From Propionispora vibrioides (GTDB lineage Bacteria > Bacillota > Negativicutes > Propionisporales > Propionisporaceae): 64,000 bases of DNA. The stretch spans positions 1-64,000 of the forward strand of contig NZ_FODY01000017.1 in the NCBI RefSeq assembly GCF_900110485.1, given 5' to 3'. Shown piece after piece: positions 1 to 63,708 of this stretch; positions within the stretch are counted from its first letter, which is position 1; each line of letters starts with the position of its first letter. The position numbers were made by a program, and so were the translations under genes. The notes below the pieces were generated by a model that did not search any database, was not told the origin of the DNA, and worked only from the letters and a program-made list of their open reading frames with translations.

Positions 1-83
1 CCATACCGAACACAGTAGTTAAGCCCACATACGTCGAAAGTACTTGGTTGGAAACGGCCCGGGAGGATAGATAGTTGCTGGTT
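1..83 (+). rRNA. rrf: 5S ribosomal RNA, 3' part
   Basis: The window opens inside a 5S rRNA gene. The stretch ccataccgaacac...gttaagccc and the 3' part gggaggatagatagttgctgg are the usual loop B/C and helix IV/I regions of bacterial 5S rRNA. The 5' third lies before base 1. A rho-independent terminator follows directly, so this is the end of an rRNA operon. Confidence 0.9.
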
Positions 84-92
84 AAGAGAAAG

Positions 93-119
93 ACACTCAC
101 TTTGGTGGGTGTTTTTTGT
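93..119 (+). terminator. Terminator of the rRNA operon
   Basis: Stem ACACTCAC / GTGGGTGT around a TTTG loop, followed by a run of six T. It lies about 10 bases after the 5S 3' end. Confidence 0.85.
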
Positions 120-134
120 TTGTGCTGATAAGTT

Positions 135-320
135 GAAGTAGTTAAGCTCACATACGTCAAGGAAGGTACTGACGTACCTTTGATTTATTCCTGTGTGTGG
201 CTAGGTAGAAGAGTTATCGTCTTTAGTAACGAAAATGAAATAAGTCAGTGGCTGCCGGTTTAAACGGAAGACTTGGTTGGAAACGGCCCGGGAGGATAGA
301 TAGTTGCTGGTTAAGAGAAA
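135..320 (+). pseudogene. Broken second copy of the 5S 3' region
   Basis: Bases 135-163 repeat 13-41 with a few changes (agtagttaagctcacatacgtc), and 271-320 repeat 42-91 exactly. About 107 unrelated bases (164-270) separate the two parts. The copy keeps the 3' helix and the following terminator but lacks a 5' third and is split, so it cannot give a normal 5S rRNA. It probably arose by tandem duplication of the operon end followed by an insertion or rearrangement. Confidence 0.7.
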
Positions 321-350
321 GACACTCACCTTGGTGGGTGTCTTTTTGTT
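321..350 (+). terminator. Second copy of the rRNA terminator
   Basis: Perfect stem GACACTCACC / GGTGGGTGTC with a TT loop and a T-rich tail. It is duplicated together with the 5S 3' end and is a better stem than the first copy. Confidence 0.8.
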
Positions 351-576: not shown

Positions 577-758
577 GTTCCCGGCGGCCTTTACGGAAAA
601 AGACGGTCCGCAGGATGCCAGAAGGGGGGAGCTTCCGTTAAGAAATCCAATTGTTTGAGCGAAGCGAGTTTTGGATTCTAGGAAGCTTCCCCTTCTGGCA
701 AGTCTTTTGAAGTGTAGGCCTAGATTTTTTTGCCCCTTTTTGTATCATGACAAAAAGG
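577..758 (+). repeat. Structured repeat, family A, copy A1
   Basis: Order of parts: a conserved 5' block ending GGTCCGCAGGATG; a long stem with arms 617-636 and 681-699 (GCCAGAAGGGG.../...CCCCTTCTGGC); an inner stem AATCCAA / TTGGATT enclosing TTTGAGCGAAGCGAGTTT; a conserved TAGGCCTAG; then a second hairpin CCCCTTTTTGT / ACAAAAAGGGG. The same order recurs at 32980-33315 (minus) and 63305-63488 (plus) with different but still complementary arms. Function unknown. Confidence 0.8.
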
Positions 759-3921: not shown

Positions 3922-3952
3922 AATACACTTTTGGATACAAAAGAATACACTT
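3922..3952 (+). promoter_or_regulatory. Probable upstream activator site for LevR
   Basis: AATACACTT occurs at 3922-3930 and again at 3944-3952, 22 bp apart (about two helical turns), 60-90 bp before the -24 element. Sigma-54 activators bind such upstream sites. The link to this LevR is inferred from position. Confidence 0.55.
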
Positions 3953-3960
3953 GGGGTGGA

Positions 3961-4005
3961 AAACCCGGAAAGCTTGTTATTAAAGGCAGCTTTCCGGGTT
4001 TTATT
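3961..4005 (+). terminator. Terminator after levR
   Basis: Stem AAACCCGGAAAGCT / AGCTTTCCGGGTTTT with a loop of about 14 nt, followed by TATTG. It separates levR from the sigma-54 promoter just downstream. Confidence 0.8.
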
Positions 4006-4011
4006 GTGTAT

Positions 4012-4027
4012 TGGCATGTTCCTTGCA
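4012..4027 (+). promoter_or_regulatory. Sigma-54 promoter (-24/-12)
   Basis: TGGCATG-TTCC-TTGCA fits the -24/-12 consensus (TGGCACG-N4-TTGCW) with the exact N4 spacing. It lies 35 bp before the EIIC start and directly follows the gene for a sigma-54 activator. Confidence 0.92.
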
Positions 4028-32979: not shown

Positions 32980-33315
32980 GTACTTTTGCCATGATGCAAA
33001 AGTACCAAAAAAATAGGGTGCTCTGTGTCACCTAAATACATGGATAATCTTGCAGTCTTTTTTCGCCCTGCTTCGTTGTCATCGCCTTGCATATGTCCGA
33101 TATGCGCGACTCCTCCGCCTTGCAGGGCAAAAAAATCCTTGCAACCTTATCTAATGATTTAAGTAACGCAGAGCACCAGGCCTGAACTCCAAAAAGCTTG
33201 AAAAAATAGTACCTTCCTAAAAATCCGAAACTCGCTTCGCTCAAACAGTCGGATTTTCTTAACGGAAGGTACTATTTTTTCATCCTGCGGACCGCCTTTT
33301 TCCGTAACGGCCGGG
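32980..33315 (-). repeat. Structured repeat, family A, copy A2, split by B3
   Basis: Read on the minus strand: the 5' block ending GGCGGTCCGCAGGATG; long arms AAAAAATAGTACCTTCC / GGAAGGTACTATTTTTT (33202-33218, 33264-33280); inner stem AATCCGA / TCGGATT around TTTGAGCGAAGCGAGTTT; AGGCCT; then repeat B3; then the second hairpin GTACTTTTGC / GCAAAAGTAC (32980-33004). Relative to A1 and A3, only the B3 insert interrupts it. Confidence 0.82.
33014..33177 (+). repeat. Structured repeat, family B, copy B3, nested in A2
   Basis: Outer arms GGTGCTCTG...TTTAA-like / TTTAAGTAACGCAGAGCACC; inner arms GCCCTGC / GCAGGGC; core CTTCGTTGTCATCGCCTTGC and tip GCATAT-GTCCG-ATATGC. It lies between the GGCCT box and the second hairpin of A2. 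TA is seen at the left edge; the right edge has lost about 2 bp compared with the A1/A3 sequence. Confidence 0.85.
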
Positions 33316-33383: not shown

Positions 33384-35546
33384 TTACGCGGTCGGTTCCA
33401 GCACGGTTAGAAAGACCTGGACCAGTTCGGGGTCGAACTGGCTGCCGGCGCAGCGCCGGAGTTCGAGCTGTGCCTCTTCGGTAGTTTTAGCCTGCCGGTA
33501 CGGCGTAGTACGCTGCATGGCGTCATAGGCGTCGGTGATGGCGATGATGCGGCTGAGCAGCGGGATTTTAGGGCCCTCAATACCACAGGGATAACCGGTA
33601 CCATCCCAGCGCTCATGGTGGGCGGCGATAAAGTCGGACACATTAAACAGTTCGGGGATGGCTTTGGCGATCCGGCTGCCGATTTCCGGATGCCGCTTGA
33701 TTTCCAGCCATTCCCGTTCGGTCAGCGGTCCGGGTTTTATCAGGATATCCTTGGCGATGCCGACTTTTCCCACATCATGATACTGAGCGGCCAGGGACAG
33801 TTGCTGCATTTCCCGCCTGGTAAGCTGCAGTTTTTCACCGATCAGGGAAGACCATTGCTGGATGGCATCGGCGTGGGCCGTATGATGATGATCCCGCAGC
33901 TCGGCTGTCTGGATGAGGGTGGATAATAGGATTTGCCGTGTTTTTTTGCGGTTTTTCTCTTTGTTTTGATACATCATATCATCGGCCTGGTTGAGAAGCT
34001 GGTTCAACTCTGACGGCTGCGTGGCCGTGGCGCTGCCGGTGGAGGCGGCGATAGGCAGCTCGGGGCGCAGGGTATTGTACATATTCAGGGAGGTTCCCAG
34101 CTTGTCCAGGCAGGTGCGGACGGTTATTTCGGTGGCACCGGGCAGTAATACGATGAATTCATCGCCGCCGATCCGGGCAATGATGTCTTCCAGACGGAAG
34201 CTGTCGGCCAGCAGCCGGGCAAAGGTGCGGATCAGTTCGTCGCCGGCCTGGTGCCCCAGTGTATCGTTAATTAATTTCAAACCGTCCACATCACAGACGA
34301 CCAGACTGAGCGGGACTTGCTGGGCCGCGGTCAGGTGATCCCACTGCGTTTCAAAATAGGTCCGATTATACAGTCCGGTGAGCTGATCACGGGTACTGAG
34401 CAGGCGGTATTTGGATTCGGCCTGGGACAGTGCCTGGTTGCTGCTATGCAGCAGCGCAACATGCTCCCGGATGGTGCCCATCATGCTGTTGAAGGCGATG
34501 CAGAAGCGGCGTAGTTCGTTAGGCGACGTCAGATAGCTGTATTCCGGGATGGGCTGCGAGTAGTCGTGGTTTTGCACCCGTTGAGCGGCCGCTGACAGGT
34601 GAACAATGGGTTGTCCCAGATTTAGCGCCAGCAGCCAGGTTAAGAGCAAGGTGGTGAAGAGTACCAGCACGGCACCCCACAGGAGGTGCTGGATTTGCTG
34701 GTAGTAGGGGGCGAGCGCTTCCGCCTCGTCGATTTCACAAAGGATAATCACGTTATACTCGGGAATCCATTGATAGGAGCCGATGACTTGTCGTCCGCGA
34801 TGGTCTTGGTAGACACCAATGCCGGATAGTTTATTTTTGGCCCGCAGGAAGCCCTGGTTGTTTTTAATCGTACCTTTATCGGTGGCGTCCAGCCGGGAGG
34901 CGGCAATAATGGAGCCTTTACCGTCCAGAAGATAGCCTTTGCTGCTTTCGCTGGGGTGGAAGCCCTGCATAATAATGCCCAGTGTATCGACCGAAACAGA
35001 GGCGAATACCAGGCCGTTCAGTTGGTTGTTGTAGTCGAAGACCGGATTGGCAAAGACTAAAAGATTGCGGCCGGTCATCTTGCCGGCCAATATGTCGCTG
35101 ACAAAGGGTTTTCCCTCCAGCGAAGCCCGGAAATAATCACGGTCCTGTATGTTGACGCCGGGAGGAAACAAGGTGTCCAGCTCGGTGATACCGTCTTTGT
35201 CAGCGTATGTATAGCTGGAAAAATCCTGGCTGCTGTTCAGGTTGGAGTGAAAATCGGCGAGCATCCTTGCCTTGTCGTGGGAACGGACTGAATCGAGCCG
35301 GGATAGTACTGTCACATCCGCGGCCCGCTCCCGGTACCAGTTCTGCACCGACTGAAGCTGCATGCTCATGGCCTGCAGCAGCAGCCGTTCGGCCGCTTCA
35401 TAAGTCCGCTCCCTTTCATTCCAGCAATAAATGGCGGACAGTACGATGGTTAGCAGCAATACGATGCCAAGATTCCAGACGATCAGGCGGGACTTTAAGG
35501 AATGGTTTTTGATAGCTGACAATAGCACCGAATGTAAGCGGTTCAT
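33384..35546 (-). CDS. Sensor with dCache, HAMP, GGDEF and HD-GYP domains
   Basis: 720 aa. Membrane span about 20-42, an extracytoplasmic dCache-like domain (about 55-285, with DRDYFRASLEGKPFVSD), a second span (about 288-310), HAMP (to about 365), GGDEF domain with intact IGGDEF, and a C-terminal HD-GYP domain with YHDVGKVGIAKD and HHERWDGTGYP. It thus carries both a c-di-GMP making and a degrading domain in one chain; external ligands likely choose between them. Transcribed towards the A2 repeat; no clear terminator apart from that repeat. Confidence 0.9.
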   Translation of the reverse strand: MNRLHSVLLSAIKNHSLKSRLIVWNLGIVLLLTIVLSAIYCWNERERTYEAAERLLLQAMSMQLQSVQNWYRERAADVTVLSRLDSVRSHDKARMLADFHSNLNSSQDFSSYTYADKDGITELDTLFPPGVNIQDRDYFRASLEGKPFVSDILAGKMTGRNLLVFANPVFDYNNQLNGLVFASVSVDTLGIIMQGFHPSESSKGYLLDGKGSIIAASRLDATDKGTIKNNQGFLRAKNKLSGIGVYQDHRGRQVIGSYQWIPEYNVIILCEIDEAEALAPYYQQIQHLLWGAVLVLFTTLLLTWLLALNLGQPIVHLSAAAQRVQNHDYSQPIPEYSYLTSPNELRRFCIAFNSMMGTIREHVALLHSSNQALSQAESKYRLLSTRDQLTGLYNRTYFETQWDHLTAAQQVPLSLVVCDVDGLKLINDTLGHQAGDELIRTFARLLADSFRLEDIIARIGGDEFIVLLPGATEITVRTCLDKLGTSLNMYNTLRPELPIAASTGSATATQPSELNQLLNQADDMMYQNKEKNRKKTRQILLSTLIQTAELRDHHHTAHADAIQQWSSLIGEKLQLTRREMQQLSLAAQYHDVGKVGIAKDILIKPGPLTEREWLEIKRHPEIGSRIAKAIPELFNVSDFIAAHHERWDGTGYPCGIEGPKIPLLSRIIAITDAYDAMQRTTPYRQAKTTEEAQLELRRCAGSQFDPELVQVFLTVLEPTA

Positions 35547-54670: not shown

Positions 54671-54795
54671 AATAAAACCGCCTGGTGCAAGAAATACAGA
54701 TATCTTGCCCAGGCGGTCGGCTATTCTCTCCCCAAGATACGGTCCCCTGTGGTAACCCACGTCACTCCGCCAGTTCCGCATCTTTTTGCTGTTTG
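54671..54795 (-). promoter_or_regulatory. ZTP (pfl) riboswitch with terminator
   Basis: On the minus strand: ACTGGCGGAGTGACGTGGG, TTACCACAGGGGACCGTA, then, after a linker, CCGACCGCCTGGGC, which are the conserved parts of the pfl motif. The last block also begins a terminator, CCGCCTGG(GC)AAGA / TCTTGC(A)CCAGGCGG + TTTTATT, so ligand binding in the pseudoknot would prevent the stop hairpin. It lies 57 bp before the pflB ATG. Confidence 0.92.
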
Positions 54796-58601: not shown

Positions 58602-60542
58602 ATGAAGCAAACGATGACCGCCAAGATCATTGGCAGCCATCTGGTAAGCGGCAAGATGGTGGCCGGTGAAGAAATCGGCATTCGCATTGATCAGACACTG
58701 ACTCAGGATTCTACCGGGACGATGGCCTATTTACAATTGGAAGCCATGAACATTCCCCGCGTAAAGACCAAGCTGTCTGTTGCCTATATTGATCACAATA
58801 CACTGCAAACCGGCTATGAGAATGCCGACGACCATTTATTCATTCAGACTGTGGCCGCCAAACACGGCATCGTGTTTTCTAAACCGGGCAACGGCATCTG
58901 TCATCAGGTAAATGTGGAACGTTTCGGCCGGCCGGGCTGGACGCTCTTAGGTTCGGACAGTCACACGCCGACCGGCGGGGGCATCGGCATGCTGGCCATT
59001 GGCGCCGGCGGACTGGATGTGGCGGTGGCGATGGCCGGTGGCGCTTACTACTTAAAAATGCCCAAGGTCTGCCGGGTGGAACTGACCGGCAAGCTGCAGC
59101 CCTGGGTGAGCGGTAAGGATATCATCCTGGAGCTTTTACGGCGACTCAGTGTAAAAGGCGGCACCGGCCGGGTGTTTGAATATACCGGCGAAGGCGCGGC
59201 CCGTCTGACGGTGCCCGAACGGGCCACCATCACCAACATGGGGGCTGAACTGGGGGCCACCACCTCGCTGTTTGCCAGCGATGAAATGACTCGTGCCTTT
59301 TTGGCGGCCCAGGGCCGCGAAGCCGACTGGACTCCGTTGGCGCCTGATGAAGGGGCCGAATATGATGAGACGGTGGTTATCAATTTGGACGAGCTGCAGC
59401 CGCTGGTAGCTAAGCCGCATAGTCCGGACAATGTAGCTCCCGTAGTCGAACTGACCGACAGCAAGGTCGATCAGGTAGCTATTGGCAGCTGTACCAACTC
59501 GTCTTATCTGGATTTAATAAAAGTGGCGAAAATACTGGAAGGCAAACAGGTACACCCGGAAGTGTCCCTGGTCATTGCCCCCGGCTCCCGCCAGGTGCTG
59601 GGCATGCTGGCCGACAGTGGCGCGCTCAGCGTATTGCTGCGCGCCGGCGCCCGTATCCTGGAATGCGCCTGTGGTCCCTGTATCGGCATGGGGCAGTCGC
59701 CTAAATCAGGCGGGATATCCTTACGGACCTTTAACCGCAATTTTGAAGGCCGCAGCGGTACGCCTGACGCCAAAGTGTATTTGGTCAGCCCGGAAGTGGC
59801 GGCGGTGAGCGCCCTTACCGGTACAATCACCGATCCCCGCACTTTTGGGGCAGCACCTGTTGTCGTTATGCCGGACAAATTTGTTTCCGACGATCATCTG
59901 CTTGTTTTTCCGCCGGCTGACGGACAGGCTGTGGAAGTGGTCCGCGGACCCAATATCAAGCCCTTCCCCAAAGCGCAGCCGCCGGCTGAGTCGCTGCGGG
60001 CGCCGGTGCTCTTAAAAGTGGGCGACAATATTACGACCGACCACATTATGCCCTCCCACGCCAGCCTGCTGCCTTATCGTTCCAACATTCCCCATTTGGC
60101 CAAATACTGTTTCAGCGGTGTGGATTCTTCCTTCCCGGAACGGGCGCTACAGGCCCATGGCGGCATCATTGTCGGCGGCAATAACTACGGTCAGGGCTCC
60201 AGCCGGGAACATGCGGCACTGGCGCCGTTGTACCTGGGGATCAAGGCGGTGCTGGTCCAGTCTTTCGCCCGTATTCACCGGGCCAACCTGATTAACTTCG
60301 GCATTGTGCCGCTGCTGTTTGCCGACAGCGCCGACTATGCTGGAATCAGCCTGAATGATGAACTGGTTATTGAAAACCTTCGCGACCAGTTGAGTGCGGC
60401 TACCGTACTAACGGTGCGCAATGTGACGACAGGCAAGGACATTCCGGTCAAATGGGAAGCCACCGAACGGGAACGGCAGATCATTCTGGCCGGCGGGCTC
60501 TTAAACTACACCAGACAGGCAGGGGGTGTGGGCCGTGCGTAA
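58602..60542 (+). CDS. acnA: Aconitate hydratase
   Basis: 646 aa, the short mitochondrial/Clostridium-like type. Cluster ligands Cys in IGSCTNSS and in ECACGPCIGMG; the swivel domain has GGNNYGQGSSREHAAL, the substrate-binding Arg. It isomerises citrate to isocitrate through a 4Fe-4S cluster. SD GGAGGG lies 18 bp after the citrate synthase stop. It overlaps the next gene by 8 bp. Confidence 0.93.
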   Translation: MKQTMTAKIIGSHLVSGKMVAGEEIGIRIDQTLTQDSTGTMAYLQLEAMNIPRVKTKLSVAYIDHNTLQTGYENADDHLFIQTVAAKHGIVFSKPGNGICHQVNVERFGRPGWTLLGSDSHTPTGGGIGMLAIGAGGLDVAVAMAGGAYYLKMPKVCRVELTGKLQPWVSGKDIILELLRRLSVKGGTGRVFEYTGEGAARLTVPERATITNMGAELGATTSLFASDEMTRAFLAAQGREADWTPLAPDEGAEYDETVVINLDELQPLVAKPHSPDNVAPVVELTDSKVDQVAIGSCTNSSYLDLIKVAKILEGKQVHPEVSLVIAPGSRQVLGMLADSGALSVLLRAGARILECACGPCIGMGQSPKSGGISLRTFNRNFEGRSGTPDAKVYLVSPEVAAVSALTGTITDPRTFGAAPVVVMPDKFVSDDHLLVFPPADGQAVEVVRGPNIKPFPKAQPPAESLRAPVLLKVGDNITTDHIMPSHASLLPYRSNIPHLAKYCFSGVDSSFPERALQAHGGIIVGGNNYGQGSSREHAALAPLYLGIKAVLVQSFARIHRANLINFGIVPLLFADSADYAGISLNDELVIENLRDQLSAATVLTVRNVTTGKDIPVKWEATERERQIILAGGLLNYTRQAGGVGRA

Positions 60543-61530
60543 AGTTACTTTAATTCCCGGCGACGGCGTCGGACCGGAAATCGCTAAGGCCGTGCAGTCT
60601 ATTTTTGCCGCCGCTAAGGCGCCGGTGGCCTGGGACATCTGCCAGGCCGGACAAGCCGGCATCGACCAGGCGGGCGAACCGCTGCCGGAAGCGACGCTGG
60701 CCAGCATTCGTGCCAACGGTTTGGCATTCAAGGGACCGTTGACCACTCAGATCGGCAAGGGTTACCGCAGCATCAATGTAACGCTGCGCCAGACCTTCGA
60801 CCTGTATTGCAATTTACGCCCGGTAAAATCGCTGGCCGGTATCGGCAGCCGTTATGAGGGGGTCGATCTGGTCATTTTCCGGGAAAATACCGAAGATCTC
60901 TATGCCGGCGTGGAGCACAAGGTGGGGGCCGATGCCGCTGAATCAATTAAAATCATTACCCGCAAGGCATCGCTGCGCATTGCCGAGGCGGCATTTACCT
61001 ACGCGGTAAAACATAGCCGTAAGAAAGTAACGGCTGTGCATAAAGCTAATATTATGAAACTATCGGACGGCCTGTTCCTGGAGTGTGCCAGGGAAGTGGC
61101 CGCCCGGTATCCGCAAATAACCTACGAAGAAGTCATTGTAGACAATATGTGTATGCAGCTTGTCATTCGCCCGCAAAGTTATGATGTGCTGCTGGCGCCC
61201 AATCTCTACGGCGACATTATCTCCGACCTGTGCGCCGGCCTGGCCGGCGGACTGGGCGTGGTGCCCGGAGCCAATATCGGTACGGAATGCGCCATTTTTG
61301 AAGCCGTTCATGGCACGGCGCCGGACATTGCCGGCAAAAACATTGTCAATCCGGTGGCTATGCTGCTTTCCGGGCTGATGCTGCTGGAGCATATCGGCGA
61401 AACGGCTATTGCCGGCCGGATAAGGGCCGTTGTGGAGCGGGTCATTGCCGAAGGCAAAACGGTGACTCCCGATATCGGCGGTACGGCATCGACCGTGGAG
61501 ATGACCGAAGCGATTATCAAATTACTGTAA
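60535..61530 (+). CDS. icd: Isocitrate dehydrogenase, short NAD-type family
   Basis: 331 aa, isocitrate/isopropylmalate dehydrogenase family. LIPGDGVGPEI, FRENTEDLYAGVEH, the substrate Arg/Tyr/Lys region, NLYGDIISDLCAGLAGGLGVVPGANIG and HGTAPDIAGKNIVNP are present. FRENTEDLYAG fits isocitrate rather than isopropylmalate, and the operon context agrees. GTG 60535 (MRKVTLIPGDG) is chosen over GTG 60526. It produces 2-oxoglutarate, CO2 and probably NADH. Confidence 0.9.
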   Translation: MRKVTLIPGDGVGPEIAKAVQSIFAAAKAPVAWDICQAGQAGIDQAGEPLPEATLASIRANGLAFKGPLTTQIGKGYRSINVTLRQTFDLYCNLRPVKSLAGIGSRYEGVDLVIFRENTEDLYAGVEHKVGADAAESIKIITRKASLRIAEAAFTYAVKHSRKKVTAVHKANIMKLSDGLFLECAREVAARYPQITYEEVIVDNMCMQLVIRPQSYDVLLAPNLYGDIISDLCAGLAGGLGVVPGANIGTECAIFEAVHGTAPDIAGKNIVNPVAMLLSGLMLLEHIGETAIAGRIRAVVERVIAEGKTVTPDIGGTASTVEMTEAIIKLL

Positions 61531-61617
61531 TATTGCGCAACCAATGACGGGCTGTTGCACTAAAAAAGTGAACCGCTCCCAGTCAAGTAGACAGACCAAA
61601 AAAGAAAAAATATTGCT

Positions 61618-61650
61618 GTGGATCCCGTTAAGTGCGGGATCCACTTTTTT
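61618..61650 (+). terminator. Hairpin inside the IS left end
   Basis: GTGGATCCCG / CGGGATCCAC with a TTTTTT run. On the plus strand it can stop transcription coming from the icd operon; on the minus strand it lies after orfB. Confidence 0.8.
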
Positions 61651-62500
61651 ATATAACACGTTCGAGCAATTGTCGATACATCATTGGTGCCAAACGATTT
61701 AGTTTCTTTTGCCGGCGTTCATAATTATAGAAGTGTATATAATCTTCAATGGCAACAACCAGACTGTTATAATCATCAAATTTGTTGAGATAGTACGTCT
61801 CGCATTTCAGGATACCCCAGAAACCCTCCATCGGTCCGTTATCGATGCAGCGGCCAACGCGAGACATACTTTGTAACATTCCGGCTTTATCCAGCTTTGT
61901 TTTGAACTGCTTACTGGTATATTGAAAGCCTCGGTCACTGTGAAACAGCGGATGAGCTTCCGGATATTTAGTTACCGCCAAATCAAAAGTATCAAATACA
62001 AGACGATTGTTATTATGCTTACCATAGGCAAACGAAACAACACTCCTATCTTTTAAGTCGAGAATCGCACTTAGATAAAGCTTCTCACCATTTCCGTACT
62101 TAAACTCTGTTACATCGGTTAGCCACTTCTTGTTAAGATTCTTTGCTGTAAAGTTACGGCTTAGGATATTTTCTGCTGTGACTTCCGGCGTGGAGCGCCG
62201 GTATTGTGGCCGCTTCCTTCGTATGACTGCTTTCAATCCAGCAAGCCTCGTCAGACGGTAGACTCGCTTGTAGTTGTAATGTGTACCATACCGGCTGTTT
62301 AGTTCATCCGTCAACCTGCGGTACCCATAAATCCCATTGTATTGGGCGTAAAGGTAACCTAGTTTATGTACTAGATCTTTATCTTGCTCATCTATGTTCT
62401 TGCTGCGGTTGAGCCACTTGTAATAGGAAGAACGGTTCAAGTTAAGCGCCTGACAAAGATTTGCAACTGGATAGTTTTTCTCTGTATGCAATTCCACCAC
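61649..62500 (-). CDS. IS3-family transposase, OrfB (DDE domain)
   Basis: 283 aa as an independent frame from GTG 62500. HTH_21 region (SSYYKWLNRS, YGYRRLTDEL) and the rve integrase core with DDE: Asp in LTDVTEF, Asp in FHSDRGFQYTS, Glu in PMEGFWGILK. In-frame codons continue upstream without a stop to the A7G run at 62562-62569, so the true protein is most likely an OrfAB fusion made by -1 frameshifting. Confidence 0.92.
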   Translation of the reverse strand: MVELHTEKNYPVANLCQALNLNRSSYYKWLNRSKNIDEQDKDLVHKLGYLYAQYNGIYGYRRLTDELNSRYGTHYNYKRVYRLTRLAGLKAVIRRKRPQYRRSTPEVTAENILSRNFTAKNLNKKWLTDVTEFKYGNGEKLYLSAILDLKDRSVVSFAYGKHNNNRLVFDTFDLAVTKYPEAHPLFHSDRGFQYTSKQFKTKLDKAGMLQSMSRVGRCIDNGPMEGFWGILKCETYYLNKFDDYNSLVVAIEDYIHFYNYERRQKKLNRLAPMMYRQLLERVI

Positions 62501-62532
62501 GGCAATATACAGACTTTCTTGTCGGACGCCGT

Positions 62533-63216
62533 TCAGCTTCGCCTCCTTTCTACTTCTTGCACTTTTTTTAATATCTCAATTTCCATTTCTTTTCGCTTGT
62601 TCTCAGCTTGCAGAAGCCTGTTCTCTGCACGTAGGCGGTCAATCTCTGTCATTTCATCCGACAGTTTGCGCTTACCTCGCTTGTCGATGAGCCCATCTAC
62701 ACCGGATGTTTCATATTTATGGACCCAGTTGTATATCTGCGGGTAGGATACCCGATACTTTTCCGTCATTGCTGCATAGTCTTTGCCATTGGCTATGCAG
62801 TCACTGACGATTTCAATTCGCTCATCAAGCGTCGTCGCTCGTCCTTTCACCATGTGGATTTCACCCCCACTAGTTGGCTTTGTGAACCCTTCATGGTGAT
62901 TATACTTCTTAATCCACTTCCTTACAATTTGTGAATGCGTGATATCATACTTTCGACACAGTCCCTCCAGCGATTCTTCACCCGCCAGATATTCTCTGAT
63001 GGCCGTCTCCTTAAGCTCAGCCGAATATTTTCGTGCCGTTGAAGTTGGCGTCAGTCCTTCTACACCACGTGTTTTGTATAGCCGTATCCATATCTTTAGT
63101 GTCGTCTGCCCAATTCCCTTTTCCTCACATGTCTTTCTGAATCCTATCTTCCCGGCTAAGTAGTCTTCGACTATCCTTACTTTCTCTTCTATGGCTAATC
63201 GACCTTTTTGCGGCAT
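62533..63216 (-). CDS. IS3-family OrfA, helix-turn-helix protein
   Basis: 227 aa, with two or three HTH repeats (for example IGFRKTCEEKGIGQTTLKIWI, ESLEGLCRKYDITHSQIVRKWI) and a leucine-zipper-like C-terminus (IDRLRAENRLLQAENKRKEMEIEILKKVQ), which in this group multimerises the transposase. It binds the inverted repeats. Overlaps OrfB's upstream frame at the slippery run. Confidence 0.92.
   Translation of the reverse strand: MPQKGRLAIEEKVRIVEDYLAGKIGFRKTCEEKGIGQTTLKIWIRLYKTRGVEGLTPTSTARKYSAELKETAIREYLAGEESLEGLCRKYDITHSQIVRKWIKKYNHHEGFTKPTSGGEIHMVKGRATTLDERIEIVSDCIANGKDYAAMTEKYRVSYPQIYNWVHKYETSGVDGLIDKRGKRKLSDEMTEIDRLRAENRLLQAENKRKEMEIEILKKVQEVERRRS
62562..62569 (-). promoter_or_regulatory. 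Programmed -1 frameshift site
   Basis: On the minus strand TTA-AAA-AAA-G; a slip of one base back takes OrfA codons LKK into the OrfB frame (KSARSRKEAKLNGVRQESLY...). An internal SD-like AAAGGAGG follows about 12 nt downstream; in other systems such sites help slipping or OrfB initiation. Confidence 0.75.
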
Positions 63217-63304
63217 GAAAATGCTCCCTTCAAAGTTTTCAGATGTTTTTTTATTTCATCTGGCTACTTTAAAGGGAGCATATCAAAGTGTAACAGCCTT
63301 GTTT

Positions 63305-63488
63305 CGTTCCCCGTTCGGCCTTTTCCGGAAAAATACGTTCCGCAGGATGAAAAATTGCCGGCTTACGTTAAGAAATCCATTTGTTTGAGCAAAGCGAGTT
63401 TATGGATTTTAGTAAGTCGGCAATTTTTCAAGTATTTTGGAGGACAGGCCTAGCCTTTTGGGTCCCTTTGTGGCAATGACAAAGGGAC
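63305..63488 (+). repeat. Structured repeat, family A, copy A3
   Basis: 5' block CGGCCTTTTCCGGAAAAA and GTTCCGCAGGATG; long arms GAAAAATTGCCGGCTTAC / GTAAGTCGGCAATTTTTC; inner stem AATCCAT / ATGGATT around TTTGAGCAAAGCGAGTTT; CAGGCCTAG; second hairpin GTCCCTTTGT / ACAAAGGGAC. Starts 6 bp after the IS end. Confidence 0.82.
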
Positions 63489-63708
63489 GACAAACTATTT
63501 CTCCACACATACGGGCTGTTTAAATAAGCAAAATCATTTTGTGATAGTCTTTTTTGGTATAGCGCGATAATTTCGGGTTAAATCGGAGATAACTGTGAAT
63601 AGGGATTGGCAGGCCAACAGGAATTTCTCACCTGTCCGTAGAACTATCCATGAACAAAGGACAAAATGGCGTAAATGCGGCAAAAAAGGCCGCGCAGGGG
63701 GAACAAAT
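63489..63708 (+). other. Leader region of sdaAB
   Basis: About 220 bp without a reading frame. SD GCAGGGGGAAC precedes the ATG at 63709. No riboswitch recognised. Confidence 0.4.

Follow-up and report, generated by a model that had tools for sequence, protein, structure and literature searches.

Group IIC introns occur in the sense orientation behind the hairpins of intrinsic terminators. G-T pairs have been noted in the stems of REP sequences (PMC3733652). In the passage of PMC2267715 that cites Okstad 2004, bcr1 of the Bacillus cereus group is described as a dispersed, folding sequence of ~150 bp with mobile features. Narunsky et al. 2024 (PMC11109978) list 250 mobile/repeat sequence candidates (MRSC), and the text of that paper describes MRSC-65-2 as one long stem in which UYCCGG is repeated. 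Many of the dispersed bacterial repeats described are simple hairpins. We report a multi-helix element that is kept in both Bacillota and Bacteroidota and that occurs in three copies in a 64,000-nt stretch of the Propionispora vibrioides genome (contig NZ_FODY01000017.1), referred to here as the window.

Three copies in the window

Copy 1 was matched by a covariance model at 583-723 with 109 bits. The parts of the three copies are as follows, in window positions:

575-762, + strand: copy 1, core plus tail hairpin, ~490 nt 3' of a partial 5S rRNA gene
586-590 / 716-720, + strand: outer helix P1, GGCCT/AGGCC, from folding and covariation
598-604 / 702-708, + strand: helix P3, AAAAGAC/GTCTTTT, with GC/UA/CG swaps across copies
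606-616, + strand: small conserved hairpin GTCC-GCA-GGAT, from folding and covariation
617-635 with ~681-699, + strand: P5, the long variable stem and site of the G-U excess
644-650 / 671-677, + strand: apical arm AATCCAA/TTGGATT, closing the near-invariant loop TTGTTTGAGCGAAGCGAGTT with core GCGNAGC
716-723, + strand: AGGCCTAG, the 3' side of P1 plus a conserved TAG
733-743 / 750-760, + strand: tail hairpin CCCCTTTTTGT / ACAAAAAGGGG, with a T run just before it
33176-33315, - strand: copy 2 core, 129 bits, 3' of a GGDEF/HD gene (33384-35546, - strand)
32980-33005 (approximate), - strand: copy 2 tail hairpin, displaced by a nested repeat at ~33010-33178
63314-63493, + strand: copy 3, core at 63314-63453 (140 bits) plus tail hairpin
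61550-61568, + strand: left half of the copy 3 5' hairpin, GGCTGTTGCACTAAAAAAG, directly 3' of a dehydrogenase gene (60526-61530, + strand)
63286-63299, + strand: right half of the copy 3 5' hairpin, AAGTGTAACAGCCT

The original prediction listed three paired versions of an inner stem and of a tail hairpin, together with several fixed motifs. All three versions of both stems are present in the window as written, the tail hairpin of copy 2 lying ~170 nt further on, with another repeat inserted between AGGCCTGG and the tail. Of the fixed motifs, the 18-mer is present at three places in the window (one with a single mismatch), where 0.06 would be expected; AGGCCTAG proved less constant and reads AGGCCTGG in copy 2. 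The sequence between the core and tail hairpin of copy 2 is a long inverted repeat (GCCCTGCAAGGCGGAG...GACAACGAAGCAGGGC, window 33010-33178), and similar sequences (AAGGCGGAG...GACGACAACG) were found elsewhere, at window ~30901 (- strand) and at position ~1892 of locus L013 (- strand).

The loop of the copy 3 5' hairpin contains an IS3-family element (61569-63285; rve, HTH_21 and HTH_Tnp_1 domains) with AAG duplicated on either side. The opposite-strand genes seemingly upstream of copy 3 are the transposase pair of this insertion and, once it is discounted, the + strand dehydrogenase gene is the immediate upstream neighbour of copy 3. Just before copy 1, the 3' part of the 5S rRNA and its terminator (window 1-350) are partly repeated at ~268-350. 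A scan for sigma-70 promoters around copy 1 gave nothing above chance.

Conserved fold and folding strand

The folding energy of copy 1 is -84.6 kcal/mol, compared with -57.2 for shuffled sequences (z = -6.2). A conserved folded RNA or DNA of ~185 nt, with stems that stay paired in further copies, had been proposed originally, and both expectations were borne out. Standard pairs fill 92.6% of pair cells in 85 distinct copies, far above shuffles (68.4%) and slid partners (33-59%), and 42 of the 45 pairs show compensated changes on both sides, while the other three never vary; this alignment was fitted to the model and leans toward structure, a bias that the margins far exceed. The same compensated changes were seen at 21 of 46 pairs in a MAFFT alignment of the own-genome copies. 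Most of the covariation is carried by helices that the original prediction did not include (P5, P3 and the outer P1). The fold of the element is conserved, and its sequence varies freely while the fold stays.

Conservation is highest in the apical loop, TGTYTGAGCGNAGCGAGTT, in which N is a single base in 171 of 184 distinct copies (A in 79, T in 53, C in 35 and G in 4) and two bases in the other 13. Many copies were retrieved by the loop itself, and its conservation in these stems partly from search selection. In distant Bacillota, the stem under the loop can differ entirely with the loop kept, which makes the loop the best candidate contact site.

In the long stem of 82 distinct copies, whose arms were paired by Watson-Crick-only scoring that treats G-U and A-C alike, G-U pairs outnumber A-C pairs 86 to 13 (6.6-fold), although related copies are non-independent and the p-value of this difference is to be read with caution. 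C-to-T changes at unpaired sites (1/176) are rarer than G-to-A changes (28/1059). Since there is no matching C-to-T excess at these sites, mutation bias does not explain the G-U excess, and the folding strand is thus the + strand; in each of the three window copies its fold is also more stable than that of its complement. These observations argue that selection acts on the folded + strand and that palindrome correction is not the sole cause of the pairing. RNA is the simplest reading of the folded + strand, and single-stranded DNA is possible; G-T pairs form in DNA too.

Distribution, gene context and mobility

The element was found at ~25 places in its own genome by blastn and in 24 copies by R1, the first covariance model, which was built from 12 copies, all from the window's class. 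Copies on contigs C17, C30, C33, C36 and C51 lie ~400-650 nt from contig ends, and window copy 1, behind 5S rRNA, stands at a comparable distance from its contig end; judged by this distance alone, the other contig-end copies probably also stand behind rRNA operons. R1 was positive in 34 of the 150 class genomes, with 1 to at least 21 copies each, and a second covariance model, R2, identified the element in further Bacillota families. A weak R2 match at window 3930-4025 (+ strand; 24 bits, E 3e-4) may be a fourth copy in degenerate form. Public genomes scanned with a sequence pattern yielded hosts among Negativicutes (Sporomusa, Pelosinus, Anaerospora, Anaerovibrio; Sporomusa ovata and Pelosinus fermentans JBW45 are two of the carriers), other Bacillota (including a Candidatus Acetatifactor) and Bacteroidota (among them Marinilabilia, Anaerophaga, Natronoflexus, Alkalitalea and Parabacteroides). 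Full copies from the Marinilabilia group score E values of ~1e-22 to 1e-14 with R1 and have the tail hairpin as well.

No copy was found in plasmids and phages or, using one exact pattern, in viral contigs. Rfam 15, searched at gathering and permissive thresholds, returned no credible match (its hits were 5S, 23S and a ZTP riboswitch unrelated to the element), and a literature search by sequence string returned none. An ordinary ZMP/ZTP riboswitch (RF01750, 65.7 bits) lies at window 54700-54787 (- strand).

Copies lie 3' of genes or rRNA operons, often at the terminator hairpin. Nearly all copies in the own genome run in the direction of their upstream gene. Over all genomes, copies are codirectional with the upstream gene by 94 to 40, and 7 of 101 lie between divergent genes, these counts being approximate and based on simple ORF calls; strict codirectionality is nearly true in the own genome and is not universal, and we rejected it as a rule. 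Copies in distant Bacillota have no orientation bias relative to the upstream gene, and in some genomes copies form back-to-back arrays of alternating orientation. An all-against-all blastp comparison for a recurrent neighbour protein yielded none, only ORFs overlapping the element and small clusters.

Species of one genus differ in whether matching loci carry the element. Two loci whose flanks are well conserved (L254/L244 and L255/L245) hold the element in genome G000 and an ordinary terminator hairpin alone in G002, of the same genus; another three loci lack the element in G001. In the filled/empty pairs, the terminator keeps its U-run side in both members, whereas its hairpin is replaced. 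When filled and empty loci were aligned, neither a clean target duplication nor a single empty-site junction could be read, since the whole terminator hairpin differs in the two best pairs. The data support mobility of the element; an old dispersal followed by loss, in place of ongoing movement, is possible. Given its dispersal, presence/absence polymorphism and occurrence in two phyla, the element reads as a "mobile structured element" and no longer as an "RNA gene".

The element is modular. In one subfamily, the full unit comprises a terminator-like hairpin, core, tail hairpin and 3' inverted end (GGCTGTYGCA...TGCRACAGCC). These ends are missing from the other subfamilies, so the core and tail are regarded as the common unit. 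One copy (C21:41613) is without a core, its 5' hairpin, tail and 3' end being joined; it also accounts for the sole extra match (C21:41660) in a search for stand-alone tail hairpins, of which there were none. Of the features that mark a MITE of a DDE insertion sequence (terminal inverted repeats in common with an IS, plus a target duplication), the GGCTGTYGCA...TGCRACAGCC ends are seen in this one subfamily; no full-length IS bearing them and no clean duplication were seen. Where G000 and G002 both have a copy at matching loci, whole sub-modules distinguish the two, namely an 18-nt apical hairpin and a ~97-nt extra arm, which indicates gene conversion or replacement in place. The ~97-nt arm has hairpins of its own (L026, L027, L028, L251), occupies one fixed site in the 3' part of the core, and is present or absent at matching loci. 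In three copies of genome G007 (L213, L217, L222), the tail hairpin is cut at one place by an apparent insertion sequence (ACTATGAAAA...), as if this sequence targeted the tail hairpin.

Candidate explanations and known systems

Three enzymes were considered as universal partners and rejected. The Y1 transposase (PF01797) is encoded in 96 of the 150 class genomes, but G038 carries at least 21 copies of the element and no Y1 gene, and Y1-rich genomes with no element match include G018, G049 and G058. Reverse transcriptase (PF00078) is present in 14 of 16 element-rich genomes and missing in G016 and G061, and TnpB (PF07282) is missing in 12 of the 16. As each is missing from at least one element-rich genome, each is unnecessary in some present-day hosts. 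A lost or distant partner enzyme is possible.

On balance, we lean towards a non-autonomous dispersed mobile element with no gene of its own, whose folded + strand, probably as RNA, is recognised by a trans-acting factor. The + strand forms a nested rod in which GGCCT/AGGCC is the outer helix; an AT-rich helix, a short side hairpin and a long, freely varying stem come next, the apical arm with its loop UGUYUGAGCGNAGCGAGUU is near-invariant, and the tail hairpin follows. In many own-genome copies, an intrinsic-terminator-like hairpin stands in front. Transcription would place the + strand in mRNA 3' ends and behind rRNA operons, making RNA the likelier recognised form and folded single-stranded DNA the second. 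The trans-acting factor would recognise this folded strand, probably by contacting its apical loop, and this need for recognition would let the helices change solely in a compensated way. The fold, its strand, the dispersal and the presence or absence at matching loci are established by the data, whereas we infer movement by an enzyme, the machinery involved, the loop as contact and any role in the host. A bolder version is speculative, and we give it little weight: gene-less elements would spread across phyla via a folded 3'-end transcript, which an enzyme captures by its invariant loop and places behind other terminators, as a bacterial analogue of SINEs.

Alternatively, the element could be a 3'-UTR or post-terminator RNA module that serves the host, for instance by soaking up a protein as a sponge, by stabilising mRNA 3' ends or by yielding a small RNA on processing, with recombination and gene conversion spreading its copies. 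This is unlikely, if still a serious contender. It would account for the shared direction of nearly all own-genome copies and their upstream transcription units, the position of copy 1 behind 5S rRNA with several others at a similar contig-end distance, the strand-specific G-U excess, and the in-place swapping of sub-modules between G000 and G002, yet it sits poorly with the lack of a constant neighbour gene, a patchy copy number with most relatives lacking the element, the mixed orientation overall and its lack of bias in more distant Bacillota, and the alternating back-to-back arrays. Such arrays resemble those of BIMEs and would instead suit a single-stranded DNA element like REP/REPIN or IS200/IS605 derivatives, its folded + strand being recognised during replication by a Y1 (HUH) transposase. 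The loop core GCGNAGC, with one variable base in most copies, matches the d(GCGNAGC) mini-hairpin, which is very stable as DNA, and Y1 genes are widespread in the class. We nevertheless hold this origin to be distinctly improbable, given the many copies in G038 without a Y1 gene, the lack of a GTAG-type tag next to the hairpins, and the Y1-rich genomes with no element match. Template switching in replication could correct palindromes and leave compensated changes as a by-product, without selection for folding. It makes arms match, as in stems that vary almost limitlessly yet stay paired, but it predicts no strand preference, against the 6.6-fold G-U excess, and leaves unexplained why loops are invariant and helix lengths constant in both phyla; we consider it very improbable indeed.

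The folded mobile element that we favour combines strand-specific covariation with an almost invariant loop, yet has no Rfam entry and no known enzyme, and it offers a concrete target for finding the factor that recognises it. Until catalogued, it could pass for a riboswitch or small RNA in host genomes.

In common with REP, BIME and REPIN sequences, the element is intergenic and 3' of genes, with variable stems and alternating arrays; a REP, however, is a single hairpin of 20-40 bp with a GTAG or CGTC tag, whereas the core here is ~140 nt with several nested helices, and the tail hairpins of the copies inspected have no such tag. Assignment to RAYT-associated REP/REPIN was rejected on palindrome size, tag and the missing Y1 gene in G038. 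Like group IIC introns, the element lies behind terminator hairpins, but a group II intron was rejected, there being no domain V or Rfam group II match. No RT lies inside the element, and the RT genes sought as a sign of a group II intron or retron are present in 14 of the 16 element-rich genomes and missing from two. An omega RNA element of IS605/IS607 type was rejected on the distribution of TnpB given above. With the MRSC class as presented in the text of PMC11109978, the element shares structure, covariation, dozens of copies per genome, diverse phyla and an undecided RNA or DNA form. It differs from the MRSC-65-2 described there in having several helices and a GAGCGNAGCGAG loop and in lacking the layout of a single long stem with repeated UYCCGG, and on that paper's text we rejected their identity; as this comparison uses the description of MRSC-65-2 alone, the element may be among the other candidates (PMC11109978). 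Like REP/REPIN, bcr1 resembles the element in outline; its sequence is probably different, and it is confined to one species group, whereas the element described here occurs in two phyla and is tied to gene ends.
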